Shown here in pieces: positions 29,190 through 42,913 of a stretch of 43,941 bases of DNA; within the stretch, counting starts at the first letter, position 1, and every line of letters starts with the position of its first letter. The translations under genes and the position numbers were made by a program. This DNA comes from a virus. The notes beneath the pieces are model-generated. The model saw only the letters and a list, made by a program, of their open reading frames with translations, ran no database searches and was not told the DNA's origin. The stretch is taken from the IMG/VR virus record IMGVR_UViG_3300010371_000054, positions 1-43,941 of that record. One strand, written 5' to 3'.

Positions 29190-29360
29190 TTAGCGAACAA
29201 CTTCCTGTTCTGATTTTTCCGTGTGCTTACGCTCCTGGTGCTCTAGGAGGCTTGCGAGACCGCGAAAAAGGCCTCCGCAGTAGTTGCATGCCCAACCCAT
29301 TCGAGCACCTCTGAAGGTATATGGCGGAACTGGCTTGCCCCAAGCGTCAAGAGTTTTCAT
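29190..29360 (-). CDS. C2H2 zinc-finger microprotein, 56 aa
   Basis: ATG at 29360 overlaps the stop of the C5 methyltransferase gene as ATGA. Residues 25-46 (CNYCGGLFRGLASLLEHQER then KH) form C-x2-C-x12-H-x4-H with hydrophobic positions as in classical C2H2 fingers. The tail is charged. DNA or RNA binding is likely from the fold; the partner is unknown. Confidence 0.65.
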   Translation of the reverse strand: MKTLDAWGKPVPPYTFRGARMGWACNYCGGLFRGLASLLEHQERKHTEKSEQEVVR

Positions 29361-30007
29361 TCTGCTGCCTCACGGATAATATGCGGTCGCAAGGCGGCGA
29401 GCGCCGCACGCCCTATATATTCAGAGTAGACTGGCGGGATCGCCTCGGACATCTCGTTGCCGGACATCCAATCGATACCCATCGCGCCGGGACCGCAGTA
29501 CACTCCGACGTCGCCAGTGATCGTCATGAACCCGCCGTTGGCCCAATGCTCGCGCCTATTCTCGCCGCGGCGGTTTACCCTGATCTTGTGTTCTGGATGC
29601 GCGGGCTGTGCGATTGGAAAGCTACACTCGAAATGACGGTGTCGGTAGCTGCGCAGACCGAACATGTTTGCGCATAGCATCAGGTCGGCGCGCAAAGGCG
29701 CCTCTGGCACATTCTCGATGACATATGGCACGCCGCTGGCGATCAGCTTAGCTCGAACTGGGGCTATCAGGTCAGGATAGCCTGACAGATCCTCGCGCGT
29801 CTTGAGCCGGCAAAACTGCTGACATGGAGGGGACGCCCAGATCAGATCAAACTTCCGAAAGTCGATCTGCATAACGTCGGCTTGGATGAAGGGGAACGGG
29901 TACCGAGGCTGCGGATCGATATCGACGCCAATAACCTGATATCCGGCACGGGTCAGCCCCATGGCAGCGCCGCCAGCACAACAGAAAAGGTCTAAGGCTA
30001 TCGACAT
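29357..30007 (-). CDS. Compact C5 cytosine DNA methyltransferase
   Basis: 216 aa from ATG at 30007, fixed by a TGATG junction. Motif I LDLFCCAGGAAMG (residues 5-17), motif IV ASPPCQQF with catalytic Cys62, motif VI ENV (98-100), an RHRHFE motif VIII, and a motif-X-like AIPPVYSEYIGRAAL. The target-recognition region is only about 50 residues, giving a protein much shorter than typical bacterial enzymes. It probably methylates phage DNA against host restriction. Confidence 0.9.
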   Translation of the reverse strand: MSIALDLFCCAGGAAMGLTRAGYQVIGVDIDPQPRYPFPFIQADVMQIDFRKFDLIWASPPCQQFCRLKTREDLSGYPDLIAPVRAKLIASGVPYVIENVPEAPLRADLMLCANMFGLRSYRHRHFECSFPIAQPAHPEHKIRVNRRGENRREHWANGGFMTITGDVGVYCGPGAMGIDWMSGNEMSEAIPPVYSEYIGRAALAALRPHIIREAAE

Positions 30008-30078
30008 CAATGGTTCACCACTGCAAGGTAGACCGCCACGAGAGCGAGAAATAACATCCAAAATTGCCAGTTTTTCAT
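30007..30078 (-). CDS. Single-TM microprotein, 23 aa
   Basis: ATG at 30078; MKNWQFWMLFLALVAVYLAV plus VNH. Nearly the whole chain is one membrane helix. Its stop overlaps the methyltransferase start as TGATG, so it also sets up coupling. Weak ribosome binding site. Confidence 0.45.
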   Translation of the reverse strand: MKNWQFWMLFLALVAVYLAVVNH

Positions 30079-31863: not shown

Positions 31864-32880
31864 TTAAAACAAATCGAGCTGCTCCACGGCGCGCCGCCCC
31901 TTGGCGTTCACGTCGTAGAACTCGAATGGAATGAAGGTGTAGGCTTTGCGGATCACCCAACGCTGAAACTCACTGAGTGTCCGATGCTCGATCTTGGCGT
32001 TATGGCCGCCGAGCGGAAGCGTGCGCTCGCCGTCCCCAAAGACCATAGGATAGGGCCGGATTCCGCGCTCTTTCATTTTATTGAAGCGGTAGAACAGGCG
32101 CTCCCATGTCTCGCGCCTGTCGTAGCCGATAAGCATATAGGCCATGACGTGAGTTGGCGGAACGCCGTGGCGCTCAAGGGTGTCAATGCCTTTGAAAAAC
32201 CGCGCCTCGTCCCCGACATTATCCCATGCGGTGTAGAGCCGGCGATATTTGAAACTGTCATCGTGGTACGGCAGCTCGGCCAACCGAGCCGCTGACACCT
32301 CATCGATCATGCGGACGTTGATGCCCTGGTTCAGGCAAACCTTAAACCCGCCAGTTTTGATGGCGTCGAGATGGGCTTCCCACGCGGCCTGGGGCTGGCC
32401 GAAAAAGTCATTGTCCAAAAGGTGAAGGTGCTTCGGATATGGCTCGCCGCGCCACAGAGAGGCGACTGTATTGACGGTTCTCGGCTTGCCCTCTTTCCAT
32501 GGCACGACACAGAAACCGCACCGGAGGCGGCAGCCGCGTTGCGTGAATCCTATTGAGGCGTCAAACTTGGGATAGATCGAATAGTCGATCTCCTCGCTCT
32601 CGGGAATGCCAAGAAACTCCTCGACCGTCTGGTGCTCCTCTTTGTTCCATGTGCCGCTGACCACGGCCTCGGGGAATGCCTGCCGAAACTTCGCCACGCG
32701 ATCGGCGCTGAATGAGAAGATGGCCGAGCCGTAAACGCGATCATACTGAGGTTCGAGCATGTCCCGCTCGACATGCTTCGTGAAGTGCAACTCGTGACCC
32801 AAAGCGCGGTGGTGCCGCGCCAGCTTCATCAGAGCTAGGTTCGGCAGCTTTCCATCGATCTGGGTGAGGCGCACAATCAT
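31864..32880 (-). CDS. Radical SAM enzyme with a B12-binding-like N-terminus
   Basis: 338 aa. Residues 114-124 TQRGCRLRCGF then C: a CxxxCxxC cluster with Cys117, Cys121 and Cys124 that would hold the [4Fe-4S] cluster and S-adenosylmethionine. The first 100 residues (RLTQIDGKLPNLALMKLARH, DRVYGSAIFSFSADRVAKF) resemble the Rossmann-like N-terminal domain of B12-dependent radical SAM proteins but lack the DxHxxG motif. Radical SAM proteins of this type occur in rhizobial phages; substrate unknown. Nearby Mom-like and methyltransferase genes make a nucleobase a possible target. Confidence 0.85.
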   Translation of the reverse strand: MIVRLTQIDGKLPNLALMKLARHHRALGHELHFTKHVERDMLEPQYDRVYGSAIFSFSADRVAKFRQAFPEAVVSGTWNKEEHQTVEEFLGIPESEEIDYSIYPKFDASIGFTQRGCRLRCGFCVVPWKEGKPRTVNTVASLWRGEPYPKHLHLLDNDFFGQPQAAWEAHLDAIKTGGFKVCLNQGINVRMIDEVSAARLAELPYHDDSFKYRRLYTAWDNVGDEARFFKGIDTLERHGVPPTHVMAYMLIGYDRRETWERLFYRFNKMKERGIRPYPMVFGDGERTLPLGGHNAKIEHRTLSEFQRWVIRKAYTFIPFEFYDVNAKGRRAVEQLDLF

Positions 32881-33140: not shown

Positions 33141-33413
33141 CTACGCGCGGCCGGAGACTTCGGGCTGACCTTCGAACCGCGCAATCATCTCGCGCATCAG
33201 GGTCACCACGTCTTTGCGGTCGGCGCCGTTCGATATGAAATTGCAGCGCGAGCCAGCAGCGTCACCGAACGGGAAGACGAGCAAAACAAAGCCCGTCCCC
33301 CGCGCTGCGCCTTTGGCGTCGCCGTTGAAAGCTTGATCCAGAGTTCGTGCCACAGCATTCATCATGTCGCGGTATTCCTGCTGGATTGGGGCGTCGCCTA
33401 GGCGCCCGGTCAC
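33141..33413 (-). CDS. Hypothetical protein, 90 aa
   Basis: GTG at 33413 overlaps the stop of the Acb2-like gene as GTGA, so this start is preferred to the longer frame. Sequence: helical N-terminus, then a beta-rich part (ARGTGFVLLVFPFGDAAGSR, CNFISNGADRKDVVTLMREM). Conserved in phage early regions, function unknown. Confidence 0.65.
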   Translation of the reverse strand: MTGRLGDAPIQQEYRDMMNAVARTLDQAFNGDAKGAARGTGFVLLVFPFGDAAGSRCNFISNGADRKDVVTLMREMIARFEGQPEVSGRA

Positions 33414-33655
33414 GACGTCAGCTCCTTGACGATCCACATGATGGACTGTTCCAGGGAGGTGATCGCCAGTGAGTTGTAGCGGCCGGCCTTGACCCTGCCG
33501 AACAGCGCTTCAAGCTCGCCCGCCTTGTCCTTCAGAGCATCGTGCAGCGCCTTCTCGTCGTCCGTCAGAGCACGGTACTTCGGACGGAATCGGCTCACCG
33601 GAATCGCGGTGTCTGCCTGCCGGCCATCGGGTTGTCCTTCGAACACATGGGCCAT
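33410..33655 (-). CDS. Acb2/Tad1-like hairpin protein (candidate anti-CBASS sponge)
   Basis: 81 aa, AAGGAAA upstream. Residues 25-81 (KYRALTDDEKALHDALKDKA, ELEALFGRVKAG, RYNSLAITSLEQSIMWIVKE) follow the helical hairpin pattern of the Acb2/Tad1 family: YRxLxxxE at the first helix, a small insertion, and a second helix with SLAxTxLExxxMWxxK. Acb2 proteins bind cyclic oligonucleotide signals of CBASS and block abortive infection. Assignment is from remembered family pattern. Confidence 0.6.
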   Translation of the reverse strand: MAHVFEGQPDGRQADTAIPVSRFRPKYRALTDDEKALHDALKDKAGELEALFGRVKAGRYNSLAITSLEQSIMWIVKELTS

Positions 33656-33720
33656 TCTATTTCCTTCGTTTGAGGTTGGTACGCATGGCTACAAAAACGG
33701 CGTTACGTGGTGTTTATCGC

Positions 33721-34568: not shown

Positions 34569-34730
34569 TTAAGGACGAAGACCTAGCGCCTTGCGCCGGT
34601 CAGCTTCGCTGAGATGTTCGTTGCATTCTTTCAGCTTCGACCATGCCTCTGGCGGAACATCCTTCGTCCATTTAATCCCATACTGTTGGACCAACGCGCG
34701 GAATGCTTCGATTGCTTGCTCTTTTGTCAC
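34569..34730 (-). CDS. Hypothetical protein, 53 aa
   Basis: GTG at 34730 overlaps the Mom-like gene stop as GTGA. MTKEQAIEAFRALVQQYGIK then WTKDVPPEAWSKLKECNEHL: compact helical domain. Seen in rhizobial phages without function. Confidence 0.6.
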   Translation of the reverse strand: MTKEQAIEAFRALVQQYGIKWTKDVPPEAWSKLKECNEHLSEADRRKALGLRP

Positions 34731-35338
34731 TTTGAGTGTCCTTCAAACTGTTTGATGAAGAGGTGTTTCCGAGAACGCGGGCGCCACTCGCCAGTTTTCC
34801 CTTTTATTCCTTGGCGGCGCTGGCCGACGTTCACATTATCAACCCAGAAGTCTGTCTTCTGCGCCGTCAAGCCCATGTATTGGAACCCCGATGCCTTATA
34901 GATGATGCCAGTGTGACCAGCCGCGCTATCTGCATAGGTCACGATGCCACTGACGATGCACCGTCTACGTAGGAGAGAAATTGTTTTCCCAATGAACCTA
35001 CTCTCTGAATTGCGGGGGCAGTTTGGGCTCATCGCTAGGCGCTTAATTTCATACCAACCAAATTGACTTTTTCTATCCCAATATCCCTTCATCTCCGGTG
35101 CACTCAGTGGGCCATAAGAGATTGCACCCTCTAATTCCCCTTCGAAATATGCGCCAAAACTGATTTGAGAAAGGAACCCAACGTCACCTAGGTAATGCCA
35201 CCTTCGGTAAGCTACAGCCGCGGTGCGTGGATCTATGACTTCAAATCTAAGTTGGAGCGGCGAGGTCGGAATTGAACCGCCCTCCTTCCCTTGGAAAAGG
35301 GAATGCATTGCCCCTATGCTATCGCCGCGTAAATTCAC
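34727..35338 (-). CDS. Mom-like DNA modification protein
   Basis: 203 aa from GTG at 35338, GTGA-coupled to the gene before. Residues 30-165 match the Mu Mom / GNAT-related family: RWHYLGDVGFLSQISFGAYF, EIKRLAM, CPRNSES (107-113), and VTYADSAAGHTGIIYKASGF (133-152). Mom converts adenines in phage DNA to a bulky amide form that blocks many restriction enzymes. Residues 6-28 are encoded by a tRNA-Gly-like sequence, and no in-frame start exists between it and the conserved core. Confidence 0.8.
   Translation of the reverse strand: MNLRGDSIGAMHSLFQGKEGGSIPTSPLQLRFEVIDPRTAAVAYRRWHYLGDVGFLSQISFGAYFEGELEGAISYGPLSAPEMKGYWDRKSQFGWYEIKRLAMSPNCPRNSESRFIGKTISLLRRRCIVSGIVTYADSAAGHTGIIYKASGFQYMGLTAQKTDFWVDNVNVGQRRQGIKGKTGEWRPRSRKHLFIKQFEGHSK
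35253..35328 (-). tRNA. tRNA-Gly(TCC)-like gene with an 8-nt anticodon loop, nested in the Mom-like gene
   Basis: 76 nt. Acceptor GCGGCGA/TCGCCGC with TCCA end; D-stem GCAT/ATGC; anticodon stem TTCCC/GGGAA with loop TTTTCCAA (8 nt; normal loops have 7); T-loop TTCAATT. The T-stem is either 6 bp with one mismatch or 5 bp with a bulged C. Glycine identity elements known from E. coli (G1-C72, C2-G71, G3-C70, U73, C35, C36) are all present. It may be functional, a frameshift-suppressor type, or a decayed tRNA retained as coding or regulatory sequence. Confidence 0.65.
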
Positions 35339-42030: not shown

Positions 42031-42227
42031 AGCCAACCCCGATCCATCTGATTGTATCGAACCTCAAGCGCATGAAACTCCCCCTGCAGATCCAAACGTT
42101 GCAAGCGCTGGTCTCACTGGAGAAGCCGTACAGCGTGCGGCGGAATGAACTCCTCTCGATCCTGGCCGGCAAGATGACGAAACAACTGCGGTGGGAAGCG
42201 CGGCAGGAGCGGAGGAAAGCAGCATGA
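42027..42227 (+). CDS. Hypothetical basic protein, 66 aa
   Basis: ATGA overlaps on both sides. Helical (IHLIVSNLKRMKLPLQIQTL, VRRNELLSILAGKMTKQLRW) and strongly basic C-terminus (EARQERRKAA). Possibly nucleic acid binding. Confidence 0.65.
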   Translation: MKPTPIHLIVSNLKRMKLPLQIQTLQALVSLEKPYSVRRNELLSILAGKMTKQLRWEARQERRKAA

Positions 42228-42913
42228 GGAAGGAAGTCTTAGCCGAAGGCGTGGAGCTATATCTCGGGGACTGCCGCGAGGTGCTGCCAATACTTGGCAA
42301 GGTCGATGCAGTGGTGACTGATCCGCCTTACGGCATGAAATGGGATGGTAAGGTCACAGTTGGCAAGAACGGCCACGGCTCGACAGGTACGAAGGCAAAG
42401 CACTACGGCGTCGAGATCATGGGAGACGATCGGCCGTTTGAAGCTGCACCGTGGCTCCGGTTTAGGAACGTATTGCTATGGGGGTTTAATCATTTCCCCG
42501 AACAATTATCGAAGGGGCGGGCGCTCGTTTGGATTAAACGATCCGATGAAGCTTTCGGTTCGTTCCTCAGCGATGCTGAACTAGCATGGTGCTCTAACGG
42601 CCATGGTGTTTACTGCTTTCGCGATCAAAGCCTAATGGCGGAAACAAAGGATCGCGCGCATCCGACGCAAAAACCCGTTCCCTTGATGCGCTGGTGCATC
42701 GAACAATTCCCGAACTCGCAAACCATCCTTGATCCCTTCATGGGCTCCGGCACGACAGGCGTTGCCGCCGTCAAACTCGGCAGGAAGTTCATCGGCATTG
42801 AGATCGAGCCAAAGTACTTCGATATCGCACGCAAGCGCATCCAAGCCGCGCTAGACGCGCCTGATATGTTTGTAGAGCCTCCCAAGCCCGCGAAGCAGGA
42901 GGCGATGCTTTGA
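42224..42913 (+). CDS. DNA N6-adenine/N4-cytosine methyltransferase
   Basis: 229 aa from ATG 42224 (ATGA). Motif IV DPPYG at residues 33-37 comes before motif I DPFMGSGTTG (170-179) and FIGIEIEP, a beta-class order. HPTQKPVPLMRW precedes motif I as in this family. It may protect phage DNA or mark it for regulation; the target cannot be read from sequence. Confidence 0.9.
   Translation: MRKEVLAEGVELYLGDCREVLPILGKVDAVVTDPPYGMKWDGKVTVGKNGHGSTGTKAKHYGVEIMGDDRPFEAAPWLRFRNVLLWGFNHFPEQLSKGRALVWIKRSDEAFGSFLSDAELAWCSNGHGVYCFRDQSLMAETKDRAHPTQKPVPLMRWCIEQFPNSQTILDPFMGSGTTGVAAVKLGRKFIGIEIEPKYFDIARKRIQAALDAPDMFVEPPKPAKQEAML

Follow-up and report, generated by a model that had tools for sequence, protein, structure and literature searches.

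A phage-encoded Acb2-branch hairpin protein and candidate cyclic-nucleotide sponge from a soil virus

The window, a 43.9-kb virus record (43,941 nucleotides), encodes on its minus strand an 81-aa protein (33410..33655) that is a solid new member of the known Acb2/Tad1 family, from an under-sampled branch. Bacteria use small nucleotide alarm signals to trigger anti-phage suicide, and Acb2/Tad1 proteins soak these up. By analogy with characterised members, the 81-aa protein very probably acts as a hexameric sponge that sequesters a nucleotide alarm signal, blocking CBASS and/or Thoeris signalling. As proposed for this candidate cyclic-nucleotide sponge, the protein would assemble into a hexamer, as do Acb2 and T4 Vs.4; pockets including Y27 and K42 would form between protomers and hold the cyclic nucleotide alarm signals of the infected cell; and CBASS (possibly also Thoeris) effectors would stay off, such that the host does not kill itself.

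The gene and its family

The open reading frame runs on the minus strand from an ATG at 33655 to a stop ending at 33410, with a putative ribosome-binding site (AAGGA, within 33656..33668, minus strand) six bases before the ATG. This confirms the 81-aa frame given at 33410-33655 in the earlier note, from which the strand was absent; a plus-strand reading of the same interval was rejected, as it contains a stop. Both motifs quoted there are present, YRALTDDEK as residues 27–35 and RYNSLAITSLEQSIMWIVKE as residues 59–78. Relatives are encoded at 46 loci (43 in IMG/VR and three in bacterial genomes), nearly all of them full length and 48–98% identical to the protein over the best segment. Differences between the gene and 16 relatives fell mostly at third codon positions (dN/dS 0.035-0.15), and the gene is therefore under purifying selection.

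Family membership had been proposed from the sequence by the earlier note, with a profile search as the check. Pfam PF24729, the Acb2/Tad1 hairpin, matched residues 26–77 (model positions 1–54 of 58; E 1.4e-13, 51.2 bits, against a gathering cut-off of 27 bits) and had matches in 0/14 control genomes; together with the confident two-helix hairpin described below, this match supports the assignment. A chance hairpin-like reading frame or spurious gene might be suspected in so short a protein, helical hairpins being common folds, but this explanation is already refuted by the Pfam score, the 46 relatives and the dN/dS values, and retains a negligible probability. PHROG 1454 also matched the protein, and PHROG 717, taken as the T4 Vs.4 family (PMC10097602), matched weakly (E 0.0096). 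PADLOC, which holds defence rather than counter-defence models, has no model for it.

Searches of PDB chains depended on the query. Single-sequence phmmer with the protein recovered none, a point against the sponge reading; a profile of near relatives placed Acb2 on top at E 0.19; and a wider profile, which includes three phage homologs, placed Acb2 p26 first (2.8e-5), with Acb2 homolog 43 (0.0039), Tad1 (0.03) and Vs.4 (0.038) among the first ten. In profile-to-profile comparison by HHalign, the branch aligned with a canonical Acb2 set, which includes PaP2 p26 (structure 8H2J), over 56 columns, the whole hairpin (probability 96.9, E 2e-10), and with Tad1 at E 8e-5 over only 21 columns, while Acb2 aligned with Tad1 at 0.074. 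Because of these three values, the protein lies on the Acb2 side and links Acb2 with Tad1: within the Acb2/Tad1 family, its place is in the Acb2 branch.

The branch is widespread among environmental viruses but hardly represented in cultured phages, with at least 553 loci in IMG/VR compared with 4 cultured-phage records. In one record classed in Caudoviricetes under the name ‘Dunaliella viridis virus SI2’ (HQ332136, L049), the homolog shares 66% identity with its counterpart in a Sinorhizobium phage, and the assignment to an algal host is probably mistaken.

Predicted fold and pocket residues

AlphaFold2, run with 40 sequences, gave a model of pLDDT 84 in which helices at residues 32–52 and 59–80 reached pLDDT 91–97. 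Residues 1–26 were modelled with low to medium confidence and no helix was assigned there, where Acb2 has a short N-terminal helix. The structure check set out by the earlier note thus returned a confident two-helix hairpin, whose structure matches were led by Tad1 and Acb2 chains. The best Foldseek match was 8h2x (probability 0.97, TM 0.61, rmsd 1.8), and the top dozen were all Tad1, Acb2 or Vs.4, with no E-value significant for so small a fold. VIA-align superposed the model on 8h2x (Acb2) at 1.3 Å over 54 residues, on Vs.4 at 1.6 Å over 54 residues and on Acb2 homolog 43 at 2.2 Å over 57 residues (Z 7.0). Unrelated helical hairpin chains reach an equal VIA Z of 6 to 7, which counts against the sponge reading, and Z was for this reason not taken as proof. 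The modelled hairpin agrees with the Acb2 family and is no proof by itself.

Alignment places the positions of Acb2 on three parts of the protein. The YR motif and helix 1 (residues 27–52; 33500..33577, minus strand) contain Y27, R28, L30 and K42, equivalent to Acb2 Y11, R12, L14 and K26. Helix 2 (residues 59–81, RYNSLAITSLEQSIMWIVKELTS; 33413..33481, minus strand), the most conserved part, contains R59, T66, M73 and K77, equivalent to Acb2 R67, T74, M81 and R85. All eight are identical to Acb2 except residue 77, where K conservatively replaces R. Among near relatives, Y27, K42, R59, M73 and K77 were kept in 40/40 and T66 in 39/40, with R28 and L30 likewise kept in the 40. Among 65 wider relatives, K42, R59 and T80 were found in 65/65 and T66 in 64/65; this set was selected by a pattern containing Y27, R28, M73, W74 and K77, so that the conservation of these five there carries no independent weight. 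In T4 Vs.4, cGAMP is contacted by Y8, K23 and R79, which align with Y27, K42 and K77, and Y8A reduces binding more than 5-fold (PMC10097602); T68M, at the position of T66, reportedly lowers the binding affinity of T4 Acb2 (PMC12657230).

The third part is an N-terminal extension (residues 1–26; 33578..33655, minus strand), which has no counterpart in the aligned Acb2 and Vs.4 sequences. Its D-x-R-[TQ] motif has D10 and R12 invariant in near and wider relatives.

Several residues count against the sponge reading. The C-terminal [QKN]Pxx[F] (QPxxF) tail of Acb2 is absent, the protein ending in ...KELTS; this tail is a trait common to the canonical Acb2 sequences aligned here, is not known to be required and was not treated as defining. 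H11 and F82 of T4 Vs.4 correspond to L30 and T80, although PaP2 Acb2 likewise lacks both, and I75 occupies the position at which A77I breaks the T4 hexamer, although PaP2 Acb2 has I there too. In a close relative (L044:6001-6330), the hairpin tip naturally holds about 29 inserted residues, at the site of the extra loop of PaP2 Acb2.

Genomic setting, host defences and probable ligand

On its plus strand the window carries terminase, portal and major head protein genes, and a minus-strand cluster comprises genes for a Sak4-like ATPase, an HNH nuclease, a Mom-like protein, the candidate sponge, a radical SAM protein (31864-32880, minus strand; phrog_9298, 1.8e-40) and an integrase; given the head and terminase genes and a cluster with integrase, the window looks like a temperate tailed phage. 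Its sole nucleotide match in the phage collection (query window 20000-43941) was a Bradyrhizobium elkanii prophage, and the host of this soil phage is most likely Bradyrhizobium.

The earlier note had the gene lying between other candidate anti-defence genes, which holds at a distance: the Mom-like DNA-modification protein (34727-35338, minus strand; PF25680 4.9e-30, phrog_1384), which probably protects phage DNA against restriction, is encoded 1.07 kb upstream, and 3.3 kb downstream lies the gene for a DNA methyltransferase (29357-30061, minus strand; phrog_363), but no function is assigned to the genes directly adjacent. With a further methyltransferase (42191-42913, plus strand; phrog_67), this 44-kb phage carries three separate DNA-modification genes, two for methyltransferases and one for the Mom-like protein. 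The gene after that of the candidate sponge (33141..33437, minus strand; phrog_35296) encodes a conserved small protein of up to 98 aa with an FPFG...RCNFISNGADRKDVVTLM motif. Its listed GTG start overlaps the sponge gene, and its true start is probably further inside the listed frame because of a stop in L009; a single-sequence structure model of its product was unusable (pLDDT 48). It follows the sponge gene in 10/46 close relatives. It was rejected as an obligate partner, since a sponge gene lies near only 10/50 of its own relatives. Gene order only would suggest an operon and early timing for the sponge gene; promoter and terminator scans gave results at the level of shuffles.

Homologs occupy different locations: among structural genes in Sinorhizobium phage Aussie, adjoining recT/exonuclease in ctCJ8213 and within the accessory cluster here. 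The position among head-tail genes in Aussie would suit a hairpin protein with another role, for example as an accessory protein of virion assembly or DNA metabolism. However, the Acb2 homolog of JBD67 too sits between the major head protein and the head-tail adaptor, so that a place among head genes does not exclude a sponge; moreover, location varies between phages, as it does for accessory genes, and the pocket residues are conserved, making such a role improbable.

The genomes of likely hosts encode makers of more than one signal. Among bacterial genomes, the closest homolog, 86% identical, comes from Bradyrhizobium centrolobii, and the same genome has, on contig L201, a CBASS locus in which a cyclase (PDLC00823, 6e-101) adjoins a 4TM effector (PDLC00719, 3e-91) and which also has a ThiF-domain gene. 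Among 98 sampled genomes of this genus, a SMODS nucleotidyltransferase was found in 29/98 and a ThsB TIR in 13/98; hence makers of each kind of signal are present among likely hosts. In one genome of the genus (G050), a homolog 59% identical to the protein lies at C2:44930-45142, and on another contig three ThsB TIR matches and one SMODS match fall within about 7 kb (C26:112686-119741), a possible Thoeris and CBASS island.

For the ligand, cyclic di- or trinucleotides rank first, with roughly even chances; cADPR isomers come second and are distinctly less probable; both classes together, or another ligand, rank last. A sponge mainly for a TIR-made signal (2'cADPR, 3'cADPR or a relative), and hence anti-Thoeris rather than anti-CBASS, is a minority possibility. 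It draws on helix 2 (GRYNSLAITSLEQSIMW), which is nearer to that of Tad1 (SRENACALTHVEEALMW) and to that of Acb2 homolog 43 with 3'cADPR (GREKSVFKTKLEEAMFF) than to that of Acb2 (GRWLAIGKTDIQTGMMA), on the closer HHalign match to Tad1 than Acb2 itself attains, and on the ThsB TIR genes of the Bradyrhizobium group. Nevertheless, the Tad1 match covers only 21 columns, the protein lacks the N-terminal beta domain of Tad1, and the Y and K that contact cyclic dinucleotides in Acb2 recur in every one of the 40 near relatives. It is also conceivable, though doubtful, that the branch stands between Acb2 and Tad1, combining an Acb2-like helix 1 with its cyclic-dinucleotide contacts, a helix 2 like that of Tad1 and homolog 43 and, as an extra pocket part, an N-terminal D-x-R-[TQ] motif of its own, and could bind signals of CBASS as well as those of the cADPR type, or one so far not known as a target. 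Sponge proteins indicate the alarm signals that are important in a given group of hosts, and the ligand of this branch would reveal the signalling defences met by phages of soil alphaproteobacteria.

Comparison with known sponges

The candidate sponge and Acb2 (PaP2 p26, PDB 8H2J/8IXZ; JBD67 homolog) have in common the hairpin over its 56 columns, a YR-L motif, the residues Y11, K26, R67, T74 and M81 (Acb2 numbering), size class, phage-borne state and, in some phages, a place near head genes. Identity is 22–29%, and the candidate differs in an N terminus 16 residues longer, with D-x-R-[TQ], in lacking the QPxxF tail and in having E-[QE]-[SA] in helix 2 where Acb2 has Q-x-G. T4 Vs.4 (Acb2 of T4, PDB 7UQ2), at 21% identity, offers the equivalents Y8/Y27, K23/K42, T68/T66, M75-W76/M73-W74 and R79/K77 (Vs.4/candidate), but has D61 where the candidate has R59, and the candidate has no hairpin-tip insert.

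Acb2 homolog 43 (PDB 9PTQ, with 3'cADPR) has the same short hairpin without insert and, in a sequence comparison confined to helix 2, the same GR-x-x-S-[LV] ... T-x-LE pattern. Tad1 (CbTad1 7UAV; SBSphiJ7 Tad1) consists of an N-terminal antiparallel beta-sheet and two C-terminal helices (PMC12043709); the beta domain is absent from the AlphaFold2 model of the 81-aa protein, which is much shorter and alignable over the 21 columns only, yet both have R-x-N-x-x-A-x-T-x-[LV]-E-x-[AS]-x-MW in helix 2. The branch supplies sequence intermediates between Acb2 and Tad1, a pair whose direct alignment is difficult.
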